Positions 49,427 to 63,999 of a stretch of DNA of 64,000 bases are shown here, piece by piece (position 1 is the stretch's first letter; every line of letters starts with the position of its first letter). Location of the stretch: NCBI GenBank assembly GCA_947625045.1, contig CANQMW010000003.1, forward strand, positions 62,001-126,000, in the 5' to 3' direction. The translations under genes and the position numbers were made by a program. Below the pieces are notes generated by a model. It was not told the DNA's origin and searched no databases. It saw nothing but the letters and a program-made list of their open reading frames with translations. The stretch is from an uncultured Oscillospiraceae bacterium (GTDB lineage: Bacteria; Bacillota; Clostridia; Oscillospirales; Oscillospiraceae).

Positions 49427-52025
49427 TTTCTATGTACCTCCCCTGTTTATTCTTCGTCGATGTGCTCCAGCACCTGGGCGGCATTCCCGTCGCCCAGCGC
49501 CGCGGCCTGTTCCAGAGTTCCCGGCCCTTGGCCTCGTCCTGCTCCACGCCCTCGCCGCTCAGGTACAAGGTCCCCAGCGCGAAGAGCGCAGCGGGCTCGC
49601 TCCATCCGGCCGCGGCGGTCAGGTACTCCACGGCCTTCGCCATGTCCCGCTCTACACCCTCGCCGAAGCAATAGCAGCTGCCCAAAGCGAACAGGGCGTC
49701 CGGGTCGTCGCCCTCCGCCGCGGCGGTCAAGAGCTCCACGCCTTTGGCGTCATCCTCTTCCACGCCGTGGCCCCGGAGGTACATGCTGCCCAGCAGCGCC
49801 TGCTCGCTGGCGGAAAGATCGTCCTCCTCTTCCCGCTCCTGCAGCAGCGCGGCAGCCTGGGTATAGAGTTCGTCTGCCTTGGCCTCGTCCTGCTCCACGC
49901 CCTCGCCATGGGCATACATGGAGCCCAGCCATGCCATGGCCTCGGCGTTTTCGCCGTCCGCCTCCAGGGCCTTTTCATACCACTCTATGGCCTTGGCGTC
50001 GTCGATATCCACCGCGCCGTAGCCCACGTCATAGAGCTTGCCCATCAGAAGCATACCGTAGGAGTCGCCCGCATCCGCGGCCTTTTGGGCCAGCTCCAGA
50101 GCCCTGGCGGCGTCCCGCTCCACGCCCTTGCCGTAAAGGTAGAACTCCGCCAGGTTATTCAGGGCCATGCTGTTGCCCAGCTCCGCCGCCTGGCTGTAGA
50201 GCTCCACGGCCTTTTCATAGTTCTTTTCCATGCCCTTGCCATAATAGTACATGTTTCCCAGGTTCACCATGGCCCTGTCGTAGCCCAGGTCAACCCCTTG
50301 GGTGTAATACTCCACGGCCTTGTCATAATCCTGCTCCACGCCCTCGCCGTTATCATACATCCAGCCCAGGTTATACGCGGCGGAGGCGTTGCCAAGTTCC
50401 GCCGCCTTGGTATAATACTCCACGGCCTTGTCGTAGTCCTGCTCCGTGCCGGTGCCGTCTTTATAGAACACGCCGACGTTATTGGCGGCCGCGCCCCGGA
50501 CCTCGTTGCTGCCCGCATCCGCCGCGGCCTTCTCCGCCCATTGGAAGGCCTTGGCCTCGTCCTTCTCCACGCCATTGCCGTAATAATATATCTCGCAGAG
50601 ATACTCCCCCGCGACGGCGCTGCTCAGCGCCGCCGCGGCCTCGAAACACTCCAGCGCTTTGGCCTGGTCCTGTTCTACGCCATCGGCAAAAAAGTACATG
50701 TTGCCCAGCATCTCCAGGGCATAGTGATCCTGCCGCTCCGCCCCCAGGGTGAACCACTCCAGCGCCTTGGCCTGGTCCTGCTCCACGCCCTGGCCGTAAT
50801 AGTACATATACCCCAGCCGGCCCGGCGCAAACATGTCCCCGTTGTCGGAAGCCCGGGTCAAAAGCTCCAGAGCCTTTTCATAATCCTGCTCCGTGCCCCG
50901 GCCTAAAAGATACATCGTGCCCAAAATGCGCTGGGCCGTGGCGTCGGCAAGCTCGTCGTCAGCCGAGAGGATATCGAAGGCCTGGCCGTACAGCTCCTCC
51001 GCTTTGGCCTCGTCCTTTTCCACGCCCTGGCCCTGCTCATAGAGGTAGCCCAGCCGGTACATGGCCTCGACATTGCCCTCGTCCACGGCCTTCTCAAACC
51101 ATTTCGCCGCCTGGGCATAGTCCACGTCCACCACGCCGTAGCCCTCGGCGTAGAACTCGCCTGTGAACTCCATGCCGCCGGAGGCGCCGCCCTCCGCCGC
51201 CTGCAGGCTCAGCTCAAACGTCTTGGCCCAGTCCTGCTCCACGCCCTCGCCGCGGAAGTACATCACGGCCAGGTTGTTGAGGGCGATGGCGCTGCCAAGG
51301 TCCGCCGCGGTCTCATACAGCTCCAGGGCCCTGTCATAGTCCTTCTCCACGCCGACGCCATTTTCAACCATATAGCCCAGATTCAAAGCCGCGTTGGCCC
51401 GGTACTCATCCTGGGGCGACTCGTCCGCGACGAGCTGATAAAGGCGCATGGCCTCGTCATAGTCCTGCTCCACGGCAACACCATACCGGTACATGTCGCC
51501 GAGCCTGTAAAGGCCGTAATAGTTCCCCAGGTCAGCACCTCTCTGATAGAGCTCCGCCGCCTTGGCGCCGTCCTGCTCCACGCCGTCGCCCAGCTCGTAC
51601 ATCTGGCCCAGGCTCAGCACGGACGTGATATCGTCTTGGGCCGCCGCCTTTTCAAACCACTGCCGGGCAAGCTCCGGGTCCTGCTCCACGCCCTCGCCGG
51701 TGATATACATATTTCCCAGTATCCCCTGGGCATAGGCGTAGCCCTGCTCCGCGCCCTGGCTGGCCCACTTAAAGGCCAGCTCCGGGTCCGCCTCGGTGCC
51801 CGTGCCGGTGAGATACATATACGCCAGCATACCTGTGGCCTTGACTTCGCCGGCCTCCGCCGCGGCGGTGAACAGCTCCAGCGCGCTTTCCATGTCGCCC
51901 GCGTCATAGGCGTCCCACCCCTGCTCATAGAGCGCGGAGGGGTCCTCCGCCGCCAGGGCCGCGGGGCCCAGGCTCAGTACCATGGCCGCCGCCAGAATGA
52001 ATGCCAATACCTTTTTGATGCTCAT
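49332..52025 (-). CDS. Exported Sel1-repeat protein, frameshifted near its 3' end
   Basis: Exported protein of 897 residues as read. A signal peptide with an ALA-A type SPase I site is at about 21-27, and there is no lipobox. About 21 Sel1 repeats follow. After GRELWN (about residue 838, base 49515) the reading departs from the repeat pattern. The expected ending EQAAALGDGNAAQVLEHIDEE lies in another frame and stops at 49447. One missing G around 49514-49516 explains this: the repeat pattern calls for CTCCTGGAACAG where CTCTGGAACAG is found. As read, the tail runs into the next gene's start by 95 bases. It could be a true frameshift, a programmed one or an assembly error. Confidence 0.8.
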   Translation of the reverse strand: MSIKKVLAFILAAAMVLSLGPAALAAEDPSALYEQGWDAYDAGDMESALELFTAAAEAGEVKATGMLAYMYLTGTGTEADPELAFKWASQGAEQGYAYAQGILGNMYITGEGVEQDPELARQWFEKAAAQDDITSVLSLGQMYELGDGVEQDGAKAAELYQRGADLGNYYGLYRLGDMYRYGVAVEQDYDEAMRLYQLVADESPQDEYRANAALNLGYMVENGVGVEKDYDRALELYETAADLGSAIALNNLAVMYFRGEGVEQDWAKTFELSLQAAEGGASGGMEFTGEFYAEGYGVVDVDYAQAAKWFEKAVDEGNVEAMYRLGYLYEQGQGVEKDEAKAEELYGQAFDILSADDELADATAQRILGTMYLLGRGTEQDYEKALELLTRASDNGDMFAPGRLGYMYYYGQGVEQDQAKALEWFTLGAERQDHYALEMLGNMYFFADGVEQDQAKALECFEAAAALSSAVAGEYLCEIYYYGNGVEKDEAKAFQWAEKAAADAGSNEVRGAAANNVGVFYKDGTGTEQDYDKAVEYYTKAAELGNASAAYNLGWMYDNGEGVEQDYDKAVEYYTQGVDLGYDRAMVNLGNMYYYGKGMEKNYEKAVELYSQAAELGNSMALNNLAEFYLYGKGVERDAARALELAQKAADAGDSYGMLLMGKLYDVGYGAVDIDDAKAIEWYEKALEADGENAEAMAWLGSMYAHGEGVEQDEAKADELYTQAAALLQEREEEDDLSASEQALLGSMYLRGHGVEEDDAKGVELLTAAAEGDDPDALFALGSCYCFGEGVERDMAKAVEYLTAAAGWSEPAALFALGTLYLSGEGVEQDEAKGRELWNRPRRWATGMPPRCWSTSTKNKQGRYIENEAAEGVGVHSGGGHAAGPVRGLQKDAREDV

Positions 52026-52050: not shown

Positions 52051-52830
52051 TCAGGCCTCAGGCCGGGCGATGAGGAAGCACATGTCGTTCAGCTCGCCCT
52101 CGTCAAAATAATCGTAGAAGGTGAAATTATACAAAAACCGCTCGGCGGGGTAGATGCCGTAGCCGTCCTGGTCGTGGTCGGTGGTGTCGTAGGGGTCCGC
52201 CACGATGATCACGTCGTCCTGGGTCACCTCGGTGCCCATGTCGTCGTAGCCGATGATGATCTGCCAGTGGGCGCCCCAGTCATTCCAGCCGATGATGATG
52301 GGGTCCCCGCCCGCGAGGGTCTCCTGGATGAAGCCGAAGGTGAAGACGTCCTCCACATCCTCCCCCGCGTCGATGGCGGAGTAGCAGTCAAAGCCGCCTA
52401 CGGCGTCAAAGAGGCCAACCATCTGGCTCATGGTGGTGGCCACCGGCTCCAGCCCCTGGGGCCGCAGCTGGGCAAGGCTCTGCTCATCATAGTCCCCCCG
52501 CAGGCCGTACCACTCCAGCGTCATCAGCGCGCAGGCCACGCCGCAGCTCCACTCGCTGGACTGCTGGATGGTCTTGAAATTCGTCAGGATGGTAAGGCTG
52601 TCGGTAGAGGTCATGTTATAAAAGTCCGGGTGGCGGAAGTAGGGACTGTCCTCATGGTCCCCCGCCCGCTCCACGCTGTCCGCGCCGTCCTCGGGGCTGA
52701 TGTCGGCCCCGTCGTCGAATTTCATCTCGTCGGAGAAGTTCTCCTCCGCCGCCAGGGCGCCCGCACCCAGCGACAGGCACAGCGTCAGGACCAGGATAAG
52801 CGCGGTCACATGTTTCCAATATACGTTCAT
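52051..52830 (-). CDS. Exported papain-like (C39-type) cysteine peptidase
   Basis: Secreted protein of 259 residues. A signal peptide (about 1-28, ALA-A cleavage) is followed by an acidic linker and a papain-like C39 peptidase domain (about 85-255): Cys in SSEWSCGVAC (C96), His in GAHWQIIIGYD (H188) and Asp in VADPYD (D212). It heads the Sel1-repeat operon, with a 25-base gap to the next gene. A promoter with paired direct repeats lies upstream. It resembles in fold the cytoplasmic peptidase at 30906-31652 but has a Sec signal. It may process peptides or surface proteins; the substrate is unknown. Confidence 0.85.
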   Translation of the reverse strand: MNVYWKHVTALILVLTLCLSLGAGALAAEENFSDEMKFDDGADISPEDGADSVERAGDHEDSPYFRHPDFYNMTSTDSLTILTNFKTIQQSSEWSCGVACALMTLEWYGLRGDYDEQSLAQLRPQGLEPVATTMSQMVGLFDAVGGFDCYSAIDAGEDVEDVFTFGFIQETLAGGDPIIIGWNDWGAHWQIIIGYDDMGTEVTQDDVIIVADPYDTTDHDQDGYGIYPAERFLYNFTFYDYFDEGELNDMCFLIARPEA

Positions 52831-53111: not shown

Positions 53112-55472
53112 ATGAAACGAAACAGCAAACGCGCTCTCGCGCTCCTTCTGACGCTGATGATGACCCTGAGCCTGTGCGCTCCCGCCCTGGCGGCGGAGGA
53201 TGGGTCCGGGCCCGAAACGCCCGCCGGGCTCATAGAGGACGCCCCCGCCGCGCCCATAGGGCCGGAGGCGGAGCCCGTGGACGACGCCCCGGCGGCGGAA
53301 CCGGCGGCAGCGAACAACGTCTATGAGGTGGGGACGGCGGACGAACTGAAAAAGGCCCTCACGGACCCGGAAAAGGGAAAGACCCGCTTCATCCGGCTGA
53401 CGGATAATATCGAACTCACGGAACCGGTCGATATCGGGGAACAAGGCCAGTTCCTCCTTAAGCTGAACGGAAAGACGATCACAAAAACGAATAATATACC
53501 CGCCGGCACCGCAGCTATCACTGTGCAAGGCAAGAGTTCCGTCTCCATTCAAGATGTCGGCGCCATCACGGGCCCGGGCACGCTCCTGCAGGTGAACGGC
53601 AGCGCATTGCACCTGTGGGACGTCACGGTGAACAGCAGCGGAGACAGGAGCTGTGCCGCCGTCTGTGCGAGCGGAGGCCTTGTAGGCGTGCGCGAAGGCG
53701 CCGTCGTAGAGGCGGACGGCACGGCGATATATGCCTCGGCTGATGTAAGTGTTACGATCGAAGACGGGAGCGTCATAAGCCACGGCGGATGCGCCATCGT
53801 TGCCTGCGGCGGCGATGAAAGGCATCCCGGCATGGTCGTGGTCAGAGGCGGCACGATCGAGAGCGAGACCGGCGCCGGCGTGTGCCTTCTGCCCGGCAGT
53901 CAGCTCGCAGTAGGAGATTTCCTCGCCGGAGGCACCGGCGCCGTCATCATTGGCAAAGCCGGCATCGTGGCCCTGGGCGGCACGGCCGCTGTCATATACG
54001 GCACGGTGACCGCGAACGGAACGGACAGCGTTCAAGTGGGCGATGTTTCCGTACCTCCCGCCGCCGTGGTGGCGGACAATATGGGAGTGGCCAAGCTGGC
54101 CGACGGCGTGTTCAGCGCCGCGGCCGGCCAGGAGGCGGTGGTATATACCATAGGTGGCCAGCCGGCCAATGACCAAAACGTGACCAATGGCAGCAGGCTC
54201 CAGGTCTTCGGCGGCGTCTACTCCTCCGCGGTGGATATAAACCTTCTGGATTCGGACTTTAACACGGAGCTGGTGAGCGGCGGGATGTACAGCTACTATA
54301 CGTCCCTGCTCAAAGCGGAGCAGGACCGGAAGGACGGCGACACGGTCAACGTCCTGCGCCCGGAAAAGGCCGACATCGTGGCCGTCGGGTTCCTGCCGGA
54401 GGCTGACGACGGCATGCTGACCGAACTGGCGGAAACGGTGGGGGCCGGGGCTGTCACGGGCAGCGGGGACAACACCTTCTACATCGCGTTCAAGGCGGCG
54501 GCCGCTGCCGACCAGACGTACACGGTCACAGTCCAGAAAAGGCATGCCCATGCGAAAGATGCCGTGTATACAAAAGAGTTTGAGGCCGGGACGGTGGGCG
54601 GACTCGTCTTCTTTGCCCAAGGCGACGAGGGCGTCGACGACATGGACGATATCCAGGGCCTGTACGCCGTGATGCTGGACGAAGGCCAAGAAACGATCGT
54701 TAGATCCATTTTTATCGAGGTGCATCAGGTGACCTACGTGCCCGGCGACGGAGCGCAGGGCGAGGCCGTGACCGTCTATACCGACGTGGCCGGGCTGGAA
54801 GCCGCCCTGGCCGCTAGCCGCCCCGACGGCATCACGCTCTCCGGCGGCAGCAACACCTGGGATGAGCCTGTGGTGGAGAGGACGAGCAGCTACAGCTACG
54901 CCTGGACGGTGACCTTCCCCGCCCACTATGAATACTACGGCGGTTTGATCATCCCGGATACGACACCCAGCCCGTCTCCCTCCGCTTCCCCTGAGCCTTC
55001 CCAGACTCCCAGCCCCAGTCCCGAGCCCACGCCGGGACCCGGCACCACGCCGGAGCCCGCTCCCGTGCCGCCTCCCAAGACCGACGGCGGCACCGGCTGG
55101 AGCTATGACTATGACACGGGCGATTATTATTACTTTGTGGACGGCGAGCAAAAGTTCGGCTACTGGGCCAGTGAGGCCGCCGCCTCCCAGTGGGGCTATT
55201 GGTACTACGTGGGCGCCGACGGCAAACTGGCCACCGGCCTGCAATACATTGAAAACGACAACGGCACCGGCTGGTACTTCCTCCAGCCGGACAATGACGA
55301 CGGCTGCATAGGCCGGATGCTGGATGGCTGGCAGTGGCTGGGCGCGGAGGCCGGTATGGGCTGGTTCAACACCGCCCACGGCGGCGTCAACGGCCAGTGC
55401 ACCTGGACCGAGAATTGGGGCGATTATGACCCCGCCACGGGCCTCTGGGGCGACGGGCTGAGCCACAGGTGA
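53112..55472 (+). CDS. Secreted beta-helix protein with cell-wall-binding C-terminus
   Basis: Exported surface protein of 786 residues. A signal peptide with ALA-A cleavage is near residue 28. An acidic Pro/Ala-rich stretch follows, then a repetitive beta-rich region (about 70-350) resembling a right-handed beta-helix (VNGSALHLWDVTV and IEDGSVISHGGCAIV). After an unrecognised part, a Ser-Pro-rich linker (about 615-655) leads to a wall-binding region (about 660-786) with WYYVGADGKLATGLQYI and GWYFLQP. The same module ends the two surface proteins at 56053 and 59786. It has its own promoter with paired direct repeats and is divergent from the peptidase/Sel1 operon. It is probably an adhesin or wall-attached passenger; the ligand is unknown. 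Confidence 0.85.
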   Translation: MKRNSKRALALLLTLMMTLSLCAPALAAEDGSGPETPAGLIEDAPAAPIGPEAEPVDDAPAAEPAAANNVYEVGTADELKKALTDPEKGKTRFIRLTDNIELTEPVDIGEQGQFLLKLNGKTITKTNNIPAGTAAITVQGKSSVSIQDVGAITGPGTLLQVNGSALHLWDVTVNSSGDRSCAAVCASGGLVGVREGAVVEADGTAIYASADVSVTIEDGSVISHGGCAIVACGGDERHPGMVVVRGGTIESETGAGVCLLPGSQLAVGDFLAGGTGAVIIGKAGIVALGGTAAVIYGTVTANGTDSVQVGDVSVPPAAVVADNMGVAKLADGVFSAAAGQEAVVYTIGGQPANDQNVTNGSRLQVFGGVYSSAVDINLLDSDFNTELVSGGMYSYYTSLLKAEQDRKDGDTVNVLRPEKADIVAVGFLPEADDGMLTELAETVGAGAVTGSGDNTFYIAFKAAAAADQTYTVTVQKRHAHAKDAVYTKEFEAGTVGGLVFFAQGDEGVDDMDDIQGLYAVMLDEGQETIVRSIFIEVHQVTYVPGDGAQGEAVTVYTDVAGLEAALAASRPDGITLSGGSNTWDEPVVERTSSYSYAWTVTFPAHYEYYGGLIIPDTTPSPSPSASPEPSQTPSPSPEPTPGPGTTPEPAPVPPPKTDGGTGWSYDYDTGDYYYFVDGEQKFGYWASEAAASQWGYWYYVGADGKLATGLQYIENDNGTGWYFLQPDNDDGCIGRMLDGWQWLGAEAGMGWFNTAHGGVNGQCTWTENWGDYDPATGLWGDGLSHR

Positions 55473-55781
55473 CGTCCGCAAAAAGAACGCGCTTGCGGCA
55501 AACGCGTACTGCCGTCATCAGCGAGCTGATCTGTTTATCCCGCTGTTAAAAATTCAGCGCCCCGCAAAAGCAGCTACCGTTTCTCTCTCCCCGCTCTCCC
55601 ACGAAAGCCCAGCGAAGCGGGTTTCGCGGGAAAAAGGAGAAAGAGGGATTCCCCGCCTGCGGGCGGGCCGGGGCGCGGGGAAAACATGCCACCGGCATGT
55701 TTTCTAACACCGCGCCCTTCGAATCCCTATGATTTCACTATTAAAAATTCAGCGCCCCGCAAAAGCGGGGCGCTGAATTTT
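55473..55781. other. Intergenic region with duplicated terminator fragment and hairpin
   Basis: No gene seen. A 26-base segment at 55546-55571 is identical to 55741-55766, the 5' half of the tRNA-side terminator, but lacks the partner arm. A hairpin with arms GAAAACATGCC (55680-55690) and GGCATGTTTTC (55694-55704) is present. The stretch 55606-55640 (around CCCAGCGAAGCGGG) resembles 59514-59548, so a dispersed intergenic repeat occurs twice in the window. Confidence 0.6.
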
Positions 55782-55782
55782 T
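55743..55782. terminator. Strong bidirectional terminator next to tRNA-Ser
   Basis: Eighteen-base perfect arms (55743-55760 and 55765-55782) with loop AAAA. The core is CAGCGCCCCGC, flanked by A5 and T5. It ends the tRNA transcript on the minus strand. Confidence 0.92.
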
Positions 55783-55874
55783 GGCGGAGAAGGAGGGATT
55801 CGAACCCTCGATACCCTTTTGGGGTATACACGATTTCCAATCGTGCGCGCTCGACCAAACTACGCGACTTCTCC
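55782..55874 (-). tRNA. tRNA-Ser (anticodon GGA), CCA encoded
   Basis: Transfer RNA of 93 bases, reading serine codons UCC and UCU. On the minus strand it begins GGAGAAGTCGCGTAG and ends CCTTCTCCGCCA, so the 7-base acceptor stem and CCA are present. The anticodon loop is TTGGAAA, giving GGA. A long variable arm (ACCCCAAAAGGGT) is the serine-class mark, and the T-loop is GGTTCGAATCC. A consensus promoter lies 20 bases upstream and a strong terminator abuts the 3' end. The terminator arm begins inside the CCA triplet. Confidence 0.97.
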
Positions 55875-55977: not shown

Positions 55978-56306
55978 AACAACGGAATGTAAATTCTGTT
56001 GTAAAAGGACCGGGCGCGAAGAAAACCGAAAAATCATTAGGAGGACAACAAAATGACAAAACGTGCACTTAGCCTGCTTTTGACGCTGGTCATGGTTCTG
56101 TCCCTGTGCGTCCCGGCCCTGGCGGCCGAGGACTTCGAGGCAGAGGCTCCGGCCGAAGTCGTCGAAGAGGCGCCCGAGGCCCCCGAGGCTCCTGTAGCCC
56201 CTGAGGCCGAGGAACCTGCCGACGAGCCCGTCGTTGACGAGCCGGCGGCTGAAGAGCCTGTCGAGGCCGCCGAAGACGCGCCCGAGATGGCTTCCGTCAT
56301 GCCCGA
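55978..56306 (+). repeat. Left copy of a 329-bp inverted repeat (surface-gene 5' ends)
   Basis: Reverse-complement match to 62676-63004 over 329 bp; one difference was seen (C against T near 56277/62705). It covers 75 bp of leader with the RBS and the first 84 or so codons (signal peptide and acidic Pro/Glu-rich region) of both surface-protein genes. A small internal palindrome ACAACGGAAT...ATTCTGTTGT is at the outer end (55979-56002). Confidence 0.92.
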
Positions 56307-59300
56307 TGATATGGCCGACGAGCCCCTGCTGGTGGCTCTGGGCGTCATCGACAAGCTGAACCACTGGAAGCTGGAGAAGGCCATCAAGGCTGCCGAGCCC
56401 TACAAGACCCGCGTGGACGCCGGTGAGCTGTATGTTTACGGCCATGTCTACACCGCGACCAACACGGATTTTGCCAAGGAGTTCAAGGATGCCTATGACA
56501 AGGCCGTGATGTTCGATGACGCCATCCACGGCCGCAAGGAGGCCACCATGGACGTCACCGACGCCCAGGTCACGAGCGCTACCAGCACGCTGAAGAACAT
56601 GTTCCCGGCCGACGGCAGCGACGAGTGGACCACCGCGGCAAACGCAACGACTAGCGCGAAACTTTATCTGACCGACACGGTCGCTGCTACTGGTCCCGCC
56701 GGCTCGAGTATGAACCTCGGCACGCTGGGTGCCATCTATCCCGCGACACAGATGTCCGACAGCACGGTCAAGAACACTTACCGCGACAACAGCGCTTATA
56801 CTGGTGCTTATACCGGGTTTACGGATAACAAGCTGATCAAGACGCTCCCCACTTGGACGGACACTTTCAAGGCGAGCGACTTTGACAAGTCTCCGTGGAT
56901 CCATATGTACCAGGCCGATTACCTGACCGCCATGAAGGCTGCCGCCACGGCTGCCGAGGCGTATAACAAGAAGTACACGGCCGGTACCGCCAAGTACTCC
57001 GAGTACACCAACGTTATCAGCCTGATCAAGGCTGCCGAGGCGCTGGAGCCTGCCGCCGCGCTGCCCTCCATCGCCGACGCCCAGAAGATCGCTGACCTGC
57101 TGAAGCAGTACAAGGACGTCGCCAAGAACCAGAAGCAGGACGACTATGTCAGTTATCGTTCTATGACCGGCTTGGACGCCACTGGCACCGGCTCTATCAG
57201 CAGCCTGCTGAAGGACACCACCGGCCTGAACGGCTTCAAAGAGACCGTCCGGTACTATGATTACTGCCGCATGCTGGCCGCTCTGAACAAGGCCCTGACG
57301 CTGAAGGAAGGCACCGCGAAGATCCTGGAGCTCAAGGTCGACAGCATGTCTACGGTGAATGCGAAGATCGGTATCCCCTATGTGGGCAACGACAATGACG
57401 GCTATCTTTACGGCATTGCCTACACCGTGAACGGCCTGTATAGCAAGGTCAATAACGGCGCCTTCACCAGTACCGCCACCGACACGCTCGAGAACTCCGC
57501 TAATACGGGTACTGCAACGGGCAAGAACATCGTTGTTCCTACTGAAACGAGTAATGGCGCGACTAAATTCAGTGGCGTTGATACTGATTACGTTGGCTAT
57601 GTTCTCTATGACGATGCCACTCCTATCGCGATCCGTCAGAACATCGGCGACAAGAATGGCGAGAGCACTACCAAGTCTACGTTCGATGCCAACGATGTGA
57701 TCGTTGTCGAGCTCTATCAGCAGGTCTTGACGAAGGACGGCACCACTGTCACTTCCACCACTTGGCGTAAGGTGGACAGCAAGGAGATCAAGATGCCCTC
57801 CGACGGCTATGTTGGTCCCGTGATCAGCACCAAGGATGGCGCCATCACCGTCGATTATGACCCCATTACCACCAACAAGGCTGCGTTCCCCTACAAGACC
57901 GGCGACCTGTTCAAGAGCGTTGCGGTGGGCACCACCCTTGGCGGCTACAAGGCCGGTTCCCCCATCCAAGTGAAGGTGAAGACCGACAAGGACTTCTCCG
58001 CCGCTGATCAGAAGATGGTCCTTATTGACGCCAACGATGACGTCATCGCCTCGGCAACTGTTACTGCCAACGCAGGCAAGACGACTCCGATCGTGATCAA
58101 CACCCAGAGCCAAGGCGAGTATCTGGTCACTGCCGCTGCCACGAAGCTGCAGCTCCAGCTGATTTCCAACTCTGTGGCTCACTCCACCGAGTATGTGACC
58201 TTCGACAGCATCACCACTTGGGCCGGCATGACCAACGTGAAGAAGCTGATCGCCGACGCCCAGAAGATCGACTGGAACGATTTCAGCGACAAGGTCACCA
58301 AGACTTCCGCTCACCCCACGGTCATCAACCTGGCCACCGCCCGTGAGACCATCACCAACGATATCACCAATCTGCAGGCCTTCGTGAACGGCGGCACCTA
58401 CGCCAACACCAGCGTCAACCGTGCCCGGATCATCGATATCGCCAAGGGTCTGAAGGAAGTCTACGATTGCCTGATCAAGAAGACCGCTACTGCGGCCGAG
58501 CTGCAGGACATGGTCCTCGCGGCACAGAAGGTGAACAAGGCTGATTATACCTACGATTCCTACGGCAAGATGGACGACGCCGTGCAGGATGCCAGCAAGG
58601 CTCTGGCTCTCGGCCTGCAGTCCGAGATCGACAAGGCCTACGCCGCCCTGAGCGCGGCCATGAACGGCCTGGTCAAGGAGGGCGAGGTCGACAAGTCCGC
58701 TCTGAAGACCGCTATCGACAATGCCAAGGCGCTGAAGGAAGCTGACTACACTGCTGAGTCCTGGGCTGCCAACAAGGCCGCCATCGACGCTGCCGTCGAG
58801 GCTGCGCAGGCTGTCGTTGACAACGCTCAGGCCACCGAGGCCATGGTCAACACCGCGCTGAACAACCTGAACACCGCAGTGGGCAAGCTGATCAAGGTCA
58901 GCGGCGGCGAGGATGAGCCTCCTGTAGAGGAAGGCCCGAAGGCTCCCGCCAACGGCACCGGCTGGAACTACTACAACGGTGAGTGGTACTTCTTCAAGAA
59001 CAGCAAGCTGGTCGCGAACTACTGGGTGGGCAAGATCGACGGCGCCTCTCAGTGGGACAGCACCTGGTACTATGTGGGTGCTGACGGCAAGATGCTGACC
59101 GGCATGCAGTACATCGATGACCTGCACGGCGGCTACGGCTGGTACTTCCTGCAGCCCACCGACACCAAGGGCGAGATCGGCAAGATGCTGACCGGTTATC
59201 AGTGGGTCGGCGGCCAGTATGGCGAGTGCTACTTCAGCACGAAGTCCGGGTCCTCCGGCAAGTGCACTTGGTCCGAGCTGCTGGGCAACTGGAACGGCAC

Positions 59301-59316
59301 CACTTGGGTCAAGTAA
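56053..59316 (+). CDS. Large exported surface protein with wall-binding repeats (copy 1)
   Basis: Exported protein of 1087 residues. The signal peptide has ALA-A cleavage near residue 25 and is followed by an acidic Glu/Pro/Ala stretch to about 85. Long helical and beta regions follow, then FIVAR-like helical repeats (about 840-950, with ADYTAESW). The C-terminal about 115 residues are wall-binding modules: WYFFKNSKLVANYWVG, WYYVGADGKMLTGMQYI, GWYFLQP and GYQWVGGQYG. It is convergent with a 1047-residue paralogue. The N- and C-terminal ends are near-identical to it and the middle differs. The codon pattern is richer in A/T-ending codons than its neighbours. No clear promoter is seen on this side. 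Probably an abundant wall-attached protein (S-layer or adhesin-like). Confidence 0.9.
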   Translation: MTKRALSLLLTLVMVLSLCVPALAAEDFEAEAPAEVVEEAPEAPEAPVAPEAEEPADEPVVDEPAAEEPVEAAEDAPEMASVMPDDMADEPLLVALGVIDKLNHWKLEKAIKAAEPYKTRVDAGELYVYGHVYTATNTDFAKEFKDAYDKAVMFDDAIHGRKEATMDVTDAQVTSATSTLKNMFPADGSDEWTTAANATTSAKLYLTDTVAATGPAGSSMNLGTLGAIYPATQMSDSTVKNTYRDNSAYTGAYTGFTDNKLIKTLPTWTDTFKASDFDKSPWIHMYQADYLTAMKAAATAAEAYNKKYTAGTAKYSEYTNVISLIKAAEALEPAAALPSIADAQKIADLLKQYKDVAKNQKQDDYVSYRSMTGLDATGTGSISSLLKDTTGLNGFKETVRYYDYCRMLAALNKALTLKEGTAKILELKVDSMSTVNAKIGIPYVGNDNDGYLYGIAYTVNGLYSKVNNGAFTSTATDTLENSANTGTATGKNIVVPTETSNGATKFSGVDTDYVGYVLYDDATPIAIRQNIGDKNGESTTKSTFDANDVIVVELYQQVLTKDGTTVTSTTWRKVDSKEIKMPSDGYVGPVISTKDGAITVDYDPITTNKAAFPYKTGDLFKSVAVGTTLGGYKAGSPIQVKVKTDKDFSAADQKMVLIDANDDVIASATVTANAGKTTPIVINTQSQGEYLVTAAATKLQLQLISNSVAHSTEYVTFDSITTWAGMTNVKKLIADAQKIDWNDFSDKVTKTSAHPTVINLATARETITNDITNLQAFVNGGTYANTSVNRARIIDIAKGLKEVYDCLIKKTATAAELQDMVLAAQKVNKADYTYDSYGKMDDAVQDASKALALGLQSEIDKAYAALSAAMNGLVKEGEVDKSALKTAIDNAKALKEADYTAESWAANKAAIDAAVEAAQAVVDNAQATEAMVNTALNNLNTAVGKLIKVSGGEDEPPVEEGPKAPANGTGWNYYNGEWYFFKNSKLVANYWVGKIDGASQWDSTWYYVGADGKMLTGMQYIDDLHGGYGWYFLQPTDTKGEIGKMLTGYQWVGGQYGECYFSTKSGSSGKCTWSELLGNWNGTTWVK

Positions 59317-59350
59317 TCAAGTCACCGAGCAAAACATAGCAAATACCCCA

Positions 59351-59385
59351 CAGGGGCAGGGATTTCTCCCTGCCCCTGTTTTTTT
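59351..59385 (+). terminator. Terminator of surface-protein copy 1
   Basis: Arms CAGGGGCAGGGA (59351-59362) and TCCCTGCCCCTG (59367-59378) with a 4-base loop, followed by T7. Confidence 0.95.
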
Positions 59386-59413
59386 GTTGCGGTTTGGCTT
59401 TACTAATATAAAT

Positions 59414-59443
59414 AAGGCCCCCTTTCACAAGGGGGCCTTTTTT
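59414..59443 (+). terminator. Second terminator-like hairpin
   Basis: Arms AAGGCCCCC (59414-59422) and GGGGGCCTT (59431-59439) with an 8-base loop and a following T-run. Confidence 0.75.
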
Positions 59444-59469
59444 GCCGTCAATGCAGGTGTAAAGAATAA

Positions 59470-59697
59470 GACCCTCTCTGACGGGGGGCTGTCGGGCTTG
59501 GAGCCGCCGCGCGAGCCCAGCGAAGCGGGTCACGTGGGGAAAAGGAGGAGGCGCGGGCCACTTGAGCTTTGCCGCAAGCGGCAAAGGGAGACTTGGCCAA
59601 GCGCGCTCCGACGACGTGACCGGGGGGAGAGATTTTTATTTTCTCTCCCTCCGTCTCGCCCTCCCGGGCGAGCCACCTCCCTCGTCAGAGGGAGGCT
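59470..59697. repeat. MITE-like intergenic palindromic element
   Basis: About 228 bp with no gene. The ends are imperfect inverted repeats: CCCTCTCTGACGGGGGG at the left, and on the opposite strand CCTCCCTCTGACGAGGGAGG at the right. Internal hairpins include GAGGGAGG/CCTCCCTC and GGCTCGCC/GGCGAG pairings, plus TTTGCCGC/GCGGCAAA (59572-59586). The part at 59514-59548 is related to 55606-55640. It fits a non-autonomous repeat family, but no target-site duplication was established. Confidence 0.55.
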
Positions 59698-59721
59698 TTA
59701 ATTATACCTGGACCTATGCGC

Positions 59722-59754
59722 AAAAAAAGGGAGCAGAGCCGAAGCTCTGCTCCC
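59722..59754 (-). terminator. Terminator of surface-protein copy 2
   Basis: Arms GGGAGCAGAGC (59729-59739) and GCTCTGCTCCC (59744-59754) with loop CGAA. On the minus strand it is followed by T7 (59728-59722). Confidence 0.93.
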
Positions 59755-59785
59755 CGTTGGGTATTGCTATTTGGTTTGGGCTATC

Positions 59786-62700
59786 TTACTTGACCCAAGT
59801 GGTGCCGTTCCAGTTGCCCAGCAGCTCGGACCAGGTGCACTTGCCAGAGGACCCGGACTTCGTGCTGAAGTAGCACTCGCCGTACTGGCCGCCGACCCAC
59901 TGATAACCGGTCAGCATCTTGCCGATCTCGCCCTTGGTGTCGGTGGGCTGCAGGAAGTACCAGCCGTAGCCGCCGTGCAGGTCATCGATGTACTGCATGC
60001 CGGTCAGCATCTTGCCGTCAGCACCCACATAGTACCAGTTGCTGTCCCACTGAGAGGCACCGTCGATCTTGCCGACCCAGTAGTTCGCGACCAGCTTGCT
60101 GTTCTTGAAGAAGTACCAGGTGCCGTTATCCAGGACCCAGCCGGTGCCATTGTTGGTCGTGGGAGCCTTCGGGCCCTCGGGCTCTTCAGGAGTCACGCGG
60201 ACCAGCTTGGCCTGAGCGGTGCGCAGGCCCTCCATGGCGGTGTTCACCATGGCCTGGGTGGCCTTCTCGTTGTTGAGAACGGCCTTGGCGTTGGAGATGG
60301 CGGTGGCCAGGTCCGCAGCCTTCCAGGACTCAGCGGTGTAGTCAGCTTCCTTCAGAGCCTCGGCGGCCGTGATGGCAGCCTCCAGCGTGCTCTTCTCGAC
60401 TTCCTCAGCCTTGCCCAGCGCGGCAATGGCGGCCTTCAGTTCAGCGACAGCCTCGTCGTATTTGGACTGCAGATTAGAATCAAGGCCCTTGTAATCCTCA
60501 ATGGCAACCTGCAGAGCGCCCCAAGTCCGATAGGAGTAATCGTCGTCCTTGATCTTCATGGCCTCAAGCAGGGTCGCGTTGAACTCGCCCTTGTTGGGGG
60601 TCGCCAATGTGATATAACCAAAGGTCGTCTGAACGTTCTTGACAGTGGTGATCAGGGTCTTGCGGTTGGTCAGGGTGTTGGCCATGCCGGGAGCGTCAGT
60701 GATGAGCTTGTCAGCGGCGCTGATGAAGTTCTGCAGGGCGGTCCAGGCAGCGTCGTAATCCGCATACAGGCCGCTTCCGGCAGTGTTCAGCTTGTAGTCA
60801 CCCTTCTGAAGCTTCTTGGCGTCCTTTACAACATTCTTCAGGAAGGACATACCGCTGGTGTACTTGGTCAGAGGCTCGATGGTGACCTGGGCACGGCCGC
60901 CGGCGTGCTCCACAGGACCCTCGCCGGACTCAGTCATGACGCTCATGACCACGTCCATCTTGCCGACCGTCAGCTTGCTGTCCACATCGGAGCCGACCTT
61001 GATCGTCATCTTGGTAGCCGTCGTACCAGGAGTCACGGTCTTTAGACCAACCATAGCGATGTTCTTGTCGGAAGCGTCGCGCACGGAAGCAGTCACGACA
61101 TAAGGATTGTTACTGTCAGCAGCAATGTAGTCCCCGGTCTGGAACCCCTCATCGGGGGTCACTTCGATGGTGACTTCATTACCGCCAGTAGCACTGATCG
61201 CAGTGCCGAGAGCAGTATACGCAGCAACGGTGTCCTGGCCATTATTGAATGTCACCGTTGCTTTCTCGTCGTTGATCACGGGACCGTTGTAGTAATCGCC
61301 GGTCAGGGTCACCTGGTAGGGGACGACCTGCTCGCCGATATCACCGGTGGAAAGCACCTCGTAGACATAGACCATCACGACATCGTCATCCGCAAAGTTG
61401 GCGGGAGCGGCAACAGTGTTGTTATCCTTATTCAGAGGATGGACCGTGAAGGACTTATACACAAGGTCACCATACTCTTCATTGGATGCCCAATTGCCGG
61501 TGAGTTCCTTTATAGCGGTGGCAGAATCGGTGGTCGTCTTAGTGTTGGTAGAAGTAAGGGGATCCTCGGCGAACACGCCGTTCACAGAGAAGGCAACAGC
61601 ATAGTTCTTGCTGTCCTTTGTATCGTCCTTGCTCAGAACGATTTGCACGCTGCCTACCTTCTTGTTGTCAGAGCTCATCTTCAGGATCTGCTTCGCAACA
61701 GCCACGGTCGTGGTATTGGCGACCAAGGTCACAGCCTTCAGCTGGGTGGTATAATTGTAATAAGTAGTGGTAGCCTTGAAGCCGTTGGCAGTGGTGACAT
61801 CCATGATGCCCTGCGCGCCGCTGATGTTACCATAGACGGTCGTAATGCTATTGGCCCACTTGGCAGCCTCAGCATCCTGGACATTCTTATTGCTCGCGAG
61901 GTCCGTGTAGTCCTTGTAGGCAGCCTTCGTCGCGGCGATCGCATCGCTCAGGGCAGTGGCATTGGCGGAGGTGGGACGGCTGGCAGCGGGCTCCAGCTCG
62001 GCGGCGTCACGCAGCAGCTTCACGGCGGCGGCGTAGTCCGCGTAGACGGAGTTCTCATCCAGCGCGGCGAAAGCGTCCAGAGCCTTCACGACCGCGTCAA
62101 CATAGTCCTGCTGATAATAGGCAGTCCACTTCTTGGCGACCTGCTTGGACATCTTCGCATACTTGGTATCAGCAAAAGCAGTAGCAACACCGTCAGTGAG
62201 AGGGGCAGCATTAGGGTCGCTCATACCCTTATAGGCGCTCTTGCAGTTGGTGCCGGTGAGCAAAGTGCTGGTGAGGTAAGTCTTGATACTGCTGCCACTG
62301 ACAGCAGCCTTGACCGCAGCAAGATCGTCGGTCAGAAGGCCAGTCGTTGCGGTCTGGGTGCCGCCGTCAGCCTTCTTGATGAGACCCAGCAGAGTCGTAG
62401 CAGCCTTTTTCACGCCGGAGTCGCTCACGTCGCCAGTGATGGGCAGGCCGTTGATGCCGTCCATGCAGCGCTTGGCCTCGGCGTAAGCCTTGTCGAAGGT
62501 CGCGGTGCGGCTCGTGCTCTGTCCGATGGAAGTCCACTCGCCCTGGCCATAGACCTCCTCGGCGTCGACCTTCTCCTTCATGGCGTCGGCGACTTCCAGG
62601 GCCTTCTCCAGCTTGTAGTGGGAGACCTTATCGATAACGCCCAGCGCTACGAGGTAAGGCAGATCCTCAGCGTCCTCGGGCATGACGGAAGCCATCTCGG

Positions 62701-62929
62701 GCGCATCTTCGGCGGCCTCGACAGGCTCTTCAGCCGCCGGCTCGTCAACGACGGGCTCGTCGGCAGGTTCCTCGGCCTCAGGGGCTACAGGAGCCTCGGG
62801 GGCCTCGGGCGCCTCTTCGACGACTTCGGCCGGAGCCTCTGCCTCGAAGTCCTCGGCCGCCAGGGCCGGGACGCACAGGGACAGAACCATGACCAGCGTC
62901 AAAAGCAGGCTAAGTGCACGTTTTGTCAT
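59786..62929 (-). CDS. Large exported surface protein with wall-binding repeats (copy 2)
   Basis: Exported protein of 1047 residues, paralogue of the convergent gene at 56053. The first about 84 residues (signal peptide and acidic Pro/Glu stretch) are the same apart from silent change. The central about 750 residues have diverged strongly but keep similar beginnings (LVALGVIDKVSHYKLEKAL). FIVAR-like repeats (ADYTAESWKAADLA) and the wall-binding C-terminus (GTGWVLDNGTWYFFKNS, GWYFLQP) are conserved. The leader lies in the right inverted repeat, and a TTGCTT/TATAAT promoter stands just outside it. This copy is therefore the one expected to be transcribed in the present orientation. Shared ends with a variable middle fit antigenic alternatives. 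Confidence 0.9.
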   Translation of the reverse strand: MTKRALSLLLTLVMVLSLCVPALAAEDFEAEAPAEVVEEAPEAPEAPVAPEAEEPADEPVVDEPAAEEPVEAAEDAPEMASVMPEDAEDLPYLVALGVIDKVSHYKLEKALEVADAMKEKVDAEEVYGQGEWTSIGQSTSRTATFDKAYAEAKRCMDGINGLPITGDVSDSGVKKAATTLLGLIKKADGGTQTATTGLLTDDLAAVKAAVSGSSIKTYLTSTLLTGTNCKSAYKGMSDPNAAPLTDGVATAFADTKYAKMSKQVAKKWTAYYQQDYVDAVVKALDAFAALDENSVYADYAAAVKLLRDAAELEPAASRPTSANATALSDAIAATKAAYKDYTDLASNKNVQDAEAAKWANSITTVYGNISGAQGIMDVTTANGFKATTTYYNYTTQLKAVTLVANTTTVAVAKQILKMSSDNKKVGSVQIVLSKDDTKDSKNYAVAFSVNGVFAEDPLTSTNTKTTTDSATAIKELTGNWASNEEYGDLVYKSFTVHPLNKDNNTVAAPANFADDDVVMVYVYEVLSTGDIGEQVVPYQVTLTGDYYNGPVINDEKATVTFNNGQDTVAAYTALGTAISATGGNEVTIEVTPDEGFQTGDYIAADSNNPYVVTASVRDASDKNIAMVGLKTVTPGTTATKMTIKVGSDVDSKLTVGKMDVVMSVMTESGEGPVEHAGGRAQVTIEPLTKYTSGMSFLKNVVKDAKKLQKGDYKLNTAGSGLYADYDAAWTALQNFISAADKLITDAPGMANTLTNRKTLITTVKNVQTTFGYITLATPNKGEFNATLLEAMKIKDDDYSYRTWGALQVAIEDYKGLDSNLQSKYDEAVAELKAAIAALGKAEEVEKSTLEAAITAAEALKEADYTAESWKAADLATAISNAKAVLNNEKATQAMVNTAMEGLRTAQAKLVRVTPEEPEGPKAPTTNNGTGWVLDNGTWYFFKNSKLVANYWVGKIDGASQWDSNWYYVGADGKMLTGMQYIDDLHGGYGWYFLQPTDTKGEIGKMLTGYQWVGGQYGECYFSTKSGSSGKCTWSELLGNWNGTTWVK

Positions 62930-63004
62930 TTTGTTGTCCTCCTAATGATTTTTCGGTTTTCTTCGCGCCCGGTCCTTTTACAACAGAATTTACATTCCGT
63001 TGTT
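62676..63004 (-). repeat. Right copy of the 329-bp inverted repeat
   Basis: Matches 55978-56306 in reverse complement with one difference seen. Beyond 63004 the two flanks diverge at once, so the promoter at 63047-63075 lies outside the repeat. Confidence 0.92.
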
Positions 63005-63046
63005 CAGGCACGAAGAAAACTTCTTCGGGCACGATTCGATGTGTAG

Positions 63047-63075
63047 ATTATAACGCCCCTCTACTGCAAAAGCAA
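63047..63075 (-). promoter_or_regulatory. Promoter outside the inverted repeat, reading into copy 2
   Basis: On the minus strand TTGCTT (63075-63070), a 17-base spacer and TATAAT (63052-63047), 43 bases outside the repeat and 118 bases from the start codon. A corresponding promoter was not found at the left repeat. The rest of 63076-63234 is A/T-rich and holds no gene. Confidence 0.75.
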
Positions 63076-63234
63076 GAGGGAAATTAAAAAAAATTACGTT
63101 TTTTTCGTGGAAATGCTTGTTAATTCCGCCTGTTTTTGTGGGATTTTCACGTTTTTTCGGCCGGTTACAGCACAAAAGCGCCCCCCTTGCGGCGGGCGGA
63201 ATACGGAATCTGCGTTATGTTATTTGTTTGGGGG

Positions 63235-63999
63235 CTATTCCAGAAGGGGCAGGGCGTCCATCTGGGCCCGCTGCTCATGGCAGCTATGGGCGGTGTAGAT
63301 GCGGGTAGTCTCCACGCTGGAATGGCCCAGGATATCGGCCAGGCGCACCAGGTCCCGGTATTTATTATAGTACGTGCGCGCGAAGAGATGGCGCAGGTTG
63401 TGGGGGAACACCTTGCCCCAGGCCACGCCCGCGCGGGCCGCCAGCGCCTTCATCCGGCGCCAGATGTTGCTCCGGTCCAGGGGTTTTCCCGTCCTCGTTA
63501 CGAATACCGCCCCCCGGCGGATGCGGCGGGCCGCACACCAGCAGAGAAGCCGCCGGCAGAGCTTTTCCGGCAGCAGGACCAGGCGGATCTTGCCCTTGGA
63601 GCGTATCTCTGCCCGGCCCTGGCGCAGGGCCGCGACGGTGATGGCGCCCAGCTCGCTCACCCGTATGCCCGTGGCGCAGATGGTCTGCACCAAAAGGGCC
63701 AGACGCTCGTCGCCGTCGGCGTTTGCGGTCCGGATGAGGCGGCGGTATTCCTCCGGCGTGAGCTCCTTCTCCTCCCGCAGGAACACCGCCCGCTGCACCT
63801 TCAAAAACCGCAGGGACCACTCCGGCACCCCCGCCCAGCGCAGAAAATGGTTCACCGCCGCCAGCATGGAGTTCACGGTGGAGGGCGCATAGCCCTCCTG
63901 CAGCAGCCCCCGCTTGAAATCCAGCAGCTGCTCTTTTTCGCTCAAAGCCCCGCCGCATCGGCGTTTCAGGGCTGTCAGCGCCCGCATGTACTTGGTCAC
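63235..63999 (-). CDS. Tyrosine recombinase/integrase (N-terminus may lie beyond window)
   Basis: Site-specific recombinase, 254 residues visible. The N-terminal SAM-like DNA-binding domain (about 15-75) is present, and the catalytic domain has the complete set: Arg in TGIRVSE (R113), Lys in SKGKIRL (135/137), HNLRH (H200, R203), LGHSS (H226) and the Tyr nucleophile in TRIYTAH (Y235). The reading is open to the window edge; GTG 63999 or ATG 63987 could start it, or the gene may begin outside. XerC/D-like enzymes are about 290-300 residues, so a little may be missing. It lies 230 bases from the inverted-repeat surface-gene pair, a usual position for an invertase. Confidence 0.9.
   Translation of the reverse strand: MTKYMRALTALKRRCGGALSEKEQLLDFKRGLLQEGYAPSTVNSMLAAVNHFLRWAGVPEWSLRFLKVQRAVFLREEKELTPEEYRRLIRTANADGDERLALLVQTICATGIRVSELGAITVAALRQGRAEIRSKGKIRLVLLPEKLCRRLLCWCAARRIRRGAVFVTRTGKPLDRSNIWRRMKALAARAGVAWGKVFPHNLRHLFARTYYNKYRDLVRLADILGHSSVETTRIYTAHSCHEQRAQMDALPLLE

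Follow-up and report, generated by a model that had tools for sequence, protein, structure and literature searches.

A probable two-gene surface-protein switch by DNA inversion beside a tyrosine recombinase gene in an uncultured Oscillospiraceae bacterium

The exchange of one expressed surface protein for another by DNA inversion has been described in bacteria, and the systems concerned are the reference for the locus reported here, in which a convergent pair of surface-protein genes lies between inverted recombination sites with a tyrosine recombinase gene (int1) alongside. The locus stands at the right-hand end of a 64,000-nucleotide stretch of DNA from an uncultured Oscillospiraceae bacterium (hereafter the window; positions 62001-126000 of contig C3, GenBank CANQMW010000003.1), which belongs to a 2.93-Mb assembly of 73 contigs (G000). 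In the Vpma system of Mycoplasma agalactiae, according to the part of the account on which this comparison draws (PMC2268961), there is one unique promoter and an adjacent recombinase (Xer1), inversion joins a silent gene to the promoter, and putative recombination sites lie just upstream of the start codons, all of which resembles the present locus. The differences are that six Vpma proteins are involved versus two wall-binding proteins here, and that the role of Xer1 was shown by knockout and complementation, whereas the role of int1 is a prediction from sequence. In Lactobacillus acidophilus, the portion of PMC7858073 used here describes a chromosomal inversion that likewise swaps the expressed one of two surface-protein genes, slpA and slpB. 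Those encode S-layer proteins, while here the recombinase gene adjoins the sites and its family is traceable across Clostridia.

Within the Clostridia, the excerpted text on CwpV of Clostridioides difficile (PMC2784873) describes a phase-variable wall protein under the control of a site-specific recombinase (RecV) acting at imperfect 21-bp inverted repeats, a likeness to the present locus. There, the switch is ON/OFF through inversion of a 195-bp leader segment given as holding neither promoter nor open reading frame, and recV is placed away from cwpV; here, by contrast, the whole gene pair should flip. For the invertons of gut bacteria, as outlined in the section of PMC11892184 drawn on, the likeness concerns paralogous cassettes of the same genus, which are invertible-promoter switches beside their own recombinase, while in the window the promoter stands outside the invertible segment. 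The logic of the proposed switch is the one already described for Vpma (PMC2268961) and slpA/slpB (PMC7858073).

It is highly probable that this locus is a two-state (A/B) surface-protein switch that operates by inversion of a 7.0-kb segment. A first-pass annotation of the window had proposed such a switch, and the architecture, the side of the promoter and the role given to the recombinase have all held; the proposal has gained a recombination site at both ends, a recombinase family most of whose members lie beside inverted site pairs, and paralogues found in both orientations. The sites, the promoter, the gene order, their conservation and the two orientations of promoter segments beside close int1 paralogues are direct observations, described below.

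The convergent genes named in that annotation are present as two open reading frames, copy 1 (56053-59316, plus strand, 1087 amino acids) and copy 2 (59786-62929, minus strand, 1047 amino acids). The near-perfect inverted repeat at their 5' ends, given there as 329 bp, extends to 332 nucleotides with 2 mismatches (arms 55978-56309 and 62673-63004) and comprises the site, a ribosome-binding site, a signal peptide and an acidic stretch; ribosome-binding site and signal peptide are common to both genes. The central regions do differ, the bodies being 27% identical in a BLASTP match. A second inverted pair, absent from the annotation, is found at the C-terminal ends, where the conserved 3' end of copy 1 (58950-59316, plus) matches that of copy 2 (59786-60152, minus) over 367 nucleotides at 95%. 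Terminator-like hairpins stand at 59350-59379 (plus) for copy 1 and 59728-59755 (minus) for copy 2.

The outer edge of each repeat arm is a 24-bp semi-palindrome, ACAACGGAAT-GTAA-ATTCTGTTGT. The left site (ACAACGGAATGTAAATTCTGTTGT, 55979-56002, plus) recurs as an exact inverted match in the right site (62980-63003, minus), and each orientation occurs only once in the 2.93-Mb assembly when searched as a 25-mer with at most 3 mismatches; a reversed-pattern control under the same conditions gave 0 matches in G000. Repeat identity begins within 1 base of the outer edge of the site in the window and within 3 bases in a related genome (G022), and the flanks diverge one base further out. The site starts 74 bases upstream of the start codon in both genes, so that a recombination site lies in the 5' leader of each alternative gene.

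The promoter claimed outside the right repeat was found as TTGCTT-17-TATAAT at 63047-63075 (minus), 43 bp beyond the right site and directed into the segment. It is the single occurrence of this element in the window. A simple consensus scan misses it, but its conservation in the related loci that were read supports it. It thus lies outside the site at 62980-63003, not inside the inverted segment as in an inverton, although the inverted sites do lie beside a recombinase gene as invertons have them; a single strong promoter outside the segment, the only strong one found here, is the arrangement of a Vpma/slp-type gene swap. On the left, where the annotation saw no comparable promoter, the best match, TTGACT/TATAAT (55922-55894, minus), points to a transfer RNA (tRNA) gene, tRNA-Ser(GGA) (55782-55874, minus), and a weak plus-strand match is also present.

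The recombinase gene does adjoin the segment, as had been stated, but it is not complete within the window: its stop lies at 63235, the frame (minus strand, to 64000) runs beyond the window end, and the start, chosen from relatives, likely lies about 74 bases past it. int1 matches Pfam PF00589 with an expectation value (E) of 1.5e-27, and among solved structures the chain nearest to it in sequence is XerC-like (E 3.3e-19). Tyrosine recombinases share the catalytic residues R...HxxR...H...Y, and in the 320-amino-acid frame of int1 the corresponding motifs are ATGIRVSEL at 175, HNLRHLFA at 266, LGHSS at 290 and TRIYT at 298. For int1, the ratio of nonsynonymous to synonymous substitution rates (dN/dS) is 0.10 in the pair G000/G030 and 0.33 in the pair G000/G022, values by which int1 is judged to be kept under purifying selection next to the site. 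The protein is 67-70% identical to its counterparts in G001, G003, G021 and G022.

In the proposed mechanism, int1 would recombine the two 24-bp sites and thereby invert the segment, while the promoter would stay outside and read through the right-hand site into whichever gene adjoins it. In the assembled orientation copy 2, which adjoins the promoter, would be expressed and copy 1, distal to it, would be silent; after inversion copy 1 would be the expressed one. Each gene appears pre-equipped with the same ribosome-binding site, the same signal peptide and a terminator-like hairpin of its own, so that either would be ready for expression. Given that the promoter is fixed outside the int-side site and that a second site and a convergent gene are found in relatives, it is the coding pair, and not the promoter, that should flip. 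That int1 acts on these sites, that the segment inverts at the present day and that expression follows orientation are what we infer from the sequence.

Both products are most likely wall-bound, adhesin-like proteins. In a six-member alignment of the family, from which the features of copy 2 were taken, a FIVAR domain is matched by Pfam in 5 of the 6 members, and four choline-binding models each match weakly in 1 or 2 of the 6; copy 1 has a FIVAR domain and choline-binding-like C-terminal repeats. The C-terminal end of the six-member profile matches the choline-binding domains of autolysins, with a best E of 3.9e-08. The structure predicted for copy 1 was of low confidence, with a mean predicted local distance difference test score of 54.7 and a predicted template-modelling score of 0.31. 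Among ten full-length surface proteins of this locus and its paralogues, body identity is 22-44%, two G003 fragments with short matches being excluded from this range and two G022 proteins being extended past their stop codons, with the stops set to X. At the same locus, the bodies in G000 and in Lapin-018 are 22-29% identical while the last 367 nucleotides of the genes are 83-86% alike; diverged bodies beside similar 3' ends suggest that bodies have been replaced.

An int1 of the window type is found at seven loci (G000, G030, Lapin-018 bin19, G003, G001, G021 and G022). These seven recombinases form one clade among the promoter flippers of the genus, with a support of 97 in the Shimodaira-Hasegawa-like approximate likelihood ratio test (quick tree of 60 rows). 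The promoter lies between int1 and the site and faces the gene in all seven. The second site was found in four relatives (G001, G003, G021 and G022), where the tRNA-Ser gene is also present on the left-flank contig. In G001, G003 and G021 the two sites are on separate contigs, one by int1 and the other on the tRNA-Ser side, which fits the two-gene layout. Five flank contigs (one of G030, two each of G001 and G021) stop 76-77 bases after the start of the site. This would be a break of short-read assembly at a common repeat, and such contig ends indicate the repeat, not flipping.

A search of 60 genomes revealed many int1-like copies within the same genus, and 16 of the existing cassettes were read in G000, G001, G014, G021, G022, G030 and G033. 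Each of these has an int1-like gene, next a surface-protein gene whose leader is similar, and last another tyrosine recombinase gene of a different kind, int2 (e.g., L010:6152-11416), which is present in the 16 ON/OFF cassettes read and absent from the two-gene locus of the window; the int of cassette G014-C23 appears broken. Int and gene are separated by some 250 bp, a segment that has inverted sites of the form ACCACAGAATnnnnATTCTGTGGT at its ends and carries TTGCTT-17-TATAAT or a near form. The promoter points toward the gene (ON) in 5 of the 16 cassettes and away from it (OFF) in 11; three OFF segments from G022 are identical, leaving 14 distinct cassettes. At this rate, the chance of finding all seven two-gene loci ON is about 0.0003 by plain arithmetic that ignores relatedness.

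Pairwise comparison of the cassette segments gave 54 of 120 above the score cut, and all 54 fit an inversion between the sites. Four close pairs are in opposite states, namely G000-C10/G030-C17 (229 of 248 positions alike after inversion), G033-C28/G033-C1 (200/232), G021-C11/G001-C19 (194/224) and G033-C41/G014-C23 (186/220), while the ON/OFF pair G030-C36/G014-C59 falls below the cut. The central four bases of paired sites agree in the inverted sense at 4 of 4 positions in 15 cassettes and at 3 of 4 in one, and several different centres occur among loci, as would be expected if only matching overlaps exchange well. G000 also contains arrays in which an int1-like gene is followed by several int2-like recombinases (C3:162154-164728, C7:44407-50069 and C15:39455-41966); none of these three stretches contained a match to the strict site pattern.

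The association of this recombinase family with inverted sites extends well beyond the genus. A scan of a species-genome collection gave 228 relatives, of which the best 80 loci were kept; the closest named ones among these are uncultured Oscillospiraceae metagenome assemblies labelled Lapin, a label that by its name presumably denotes rabbit. After leaving out 3 loci of the window type, 63 of the remaining 77 had enough flank for a site-pair test, defined as two 22-mers in inverted orientation that differ at no more than 4 positions and lie directly behind the int stop. Such a pair lies directly downstream of int in 57 of these 63 clostridial relatives, not all of them independent given that several of the 80 loci are near-copies, and many pairs are of the form ACnACATAATnnnnATTATGTnGT; upstream of int the same test gave 1 of 63. 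Nine downstream proteins from eight chosen loci were tested, and 8 had a Pfam match and 1 had none. The matches include a FIVAR and carbohydrate-binding protein, a large DUF7601 protein, polysaccharide-synthesis enzymes, a helicase, a sensor kinase, a solute-binding protein and a 5'-nucleotidase-domain protein. A scan of IMG/VR with the in-window part of int1 gave 17 pattern hits, with no relative among them.

The two-gene locus also carries a probable trace of its origin. A degenerate third site (ATAACATAAC GCAG ATTCCGTATT, 63200-63223, minus) lies just past the int1 stop, at the position which the first site takes in the promoter flippers, with a centre that mismatches the working sites; it is a probable remnant of a promoter-flipping ancestor. 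Out of 20, it scores 16 in G000, Lapin-018 and G003, 17 in G021 and 13 in G001 and G022. In G000, Lapin-018, G003 and G021, no shuffled sequence out of 500 scored as high, while p was 0.040 in G001 and 0.046 in G022. In G030, the first 90 nucleotides gave a negative result (p 0.49), and extra sequence is present there, with the 24-mer of Lapin-018 further along. Two other genomes show a simpler arrangement. G033 (C32, L213:13600-19102) has the same phage-type fibre gene that stands upstream of int1 in the two-gene loci and the same promoter, but no int1 separates the two, and there is a single surface gene with a single altered site; no second leader was found in the 1259 bases past the gene, and no further copy of the altered site is present in the genome. 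G014 (C30, L215:300-4756) has the same phage operon and fixed promoter and one altered site, also without int1 between. In both, the promoter is followed by a surface-protein gene of 1183 amino acids, and these genomes have either lost the switch or retain an earlier state. The simplest history would be that loss of the int-side site fixed the promoter of a promoter flipper in the ON state, and that an inverted copy of gene, leader and site then created the gene swap. Given that the seven recombinases form one clade, the A/B switch probably had a single origin, in an ON/OFF switch.

Several observations weigh against the inversion switch. No assembly or relative examined shows this segment in both orientations, and orientation cannot be read between species because the bodies are too diverged (22-44%): when the bodies of the ten full-length proteins were compared for orthology, no left/right signal emerged. 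Only 2 of the 7 loci, those of G000 and G022, have the complete convergent pair; Lapin-018 comes near to it, with the left end missing, and G030 shows the int1 side only. The two sites of G003 differ at 1 of 24 positions, a central base, and in G014 the contig breaks off 185 bases past the gene, too soon to show a single-gene state there. The weak plus-strand promoter match left of copy 1 agrees at 9 of 12 positions (55704-55733). Finally, the nearest relatives with a name are known as metagenome assemblies, and the window itself comes from an assembly broken into 73 contigs.

Inversion could instead be driven by RecA-type homologous recombination between the 332-bp repeats, with int1 serving another role or none, a reading that we consider improbable. 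A repeat of 332 nucleotides with 2 mismatches is long enough for exchange, and the C-terminal ends of the two copies look homogenised in G000 (95% alike) and in Lapin-018 (99%), compared with 83-86% between the two genomes, although not in G022 (69%). Nonetheless, identity between the two leaders varies from 74 to 100% across the four loci compared, while the site is kept identical at both ends in G000, G001, G021 and G022 and is 1 of 24 off in G003, which argues for site-specific exchange as the main route. The purifying selection on int1 next to the site, and the single gene with one altered site in G033, which has no int1 here, point the same way. Homologous inversion, offered as an alternative in the first-pass annotation, is thus possible but less likely as the principal route; alongside int1, it could add a slower one, which would explain the C-terminal likeness in G000 and Lapin-018.

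That the locus is a frozen relic, a former inverted-duplication switch now fixed with copy 1 silent, is likewise of low probability. The missing second orientation would fit it, and the degenerate third site is evidence of site decay at this locus. Against this, the end sites are intact and identical in G000, G001, G021 and G022, both genes are open in G000, and int1 persists across species at the identity given above. It is very improbable that both genes are co-expressed from separate promoters with no switching role for the inverted layout, as the plus-strand match at 55704-55733 might allow, given that the promoter common to the loci read is on the int1 side and occurs once in the window, and that the left flank next to the site differs between species though the site is kept.

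Inversion of the gene pair by int1 would add a gene-swap surface switch to an Oscillospiraceae genus and connect it, at the sequence level, with a broad family of promoter flippers in Clostridia, and the recognisable site makes similar switches findable by pattern search. Promoter flippers, a gene swap and a lone fixed gene lacking the recombinase occur together in one genus; therefore the evolutionary route from ON/OFF to A/B is directly testable. Among the open-licence PubMed Central papers listed, judged by title and opening of the abstract, none describes a two-gene switch in Oscillospiraceae. Nor did any of them appear to cover what seems new here, namely the setting, the site family as traced, the descent of a single clade from ON/OFF switches and the phage operon alongside.

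This phage structural operon of about 12 kb lies upstream of int1, just right of the window (G000:C3:126602-138572; L009, L206). It comprises genes for small and large terminase (TerL), portal, scaffold, major capsid, connector, tape measure, tail and an S74-like fibre, the last partly recognised by eye; on its far side are a STAS/kinase-like gene (by eye), a DNA-invertase-like gene and a divIC-like gene (by eye). The fibre gene stands upstream of int1, within about 5 kb, at all seven two-gene-type loci. The idea that the locus is simply the terminus of an active prophage, int1 being the integrase, was rejected: the structural genes are 0.2-13.6 kb from the divIC-like gene in G000, G001, G003, G014, G022 and G030, and int1 relatives are mostly beside inverted sites. 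TerL relatives occur in 24 of 34 other genomes of the genus (best match 71-92%), near the divIC-like gene in the six genomes where that gene was seen, and in the G000/G030 comparison the genes for TerL, portal, capsid and one tail protein have dN/dS values of 0.07-0.29. The operon may be a domesticated, siphovirus-like gene transfer agent (GTA). GTA activity has been reported for an Oscillospiraceae genus, with no operon named in the part of the report drawn on (PMC12946183). Against a GTA, there are 2-4 TerL matches in each of several genomes, and the capsid gene recurs in two IMG/VR contigs, with 69-76% identity; therefore related prophages may exist.

A functional coupling of the switch to this operon is unlikely in our estimation. 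If it were true and the operon made a GTA, the switched wall protein could act as or mask a particle receptor, and flipping would decide which siblings donate or receive DNA, or which phages adsorb; the locus would also preserve the conversion from ON/OFF to A/B in living species.

On the other side of the segment, beyond the tRNA-Ser gene, there are three further genes of secreted type beside the switch. The product of 49332-52025 is Sel1-repeat-like (by eye), that of 52051-52830 is C39-peptidase-like with a match below the Pfam cut-off, and that of 53112-55472 has a C-terminal region 47% identical over about 100 amino acids to the switch proteins.

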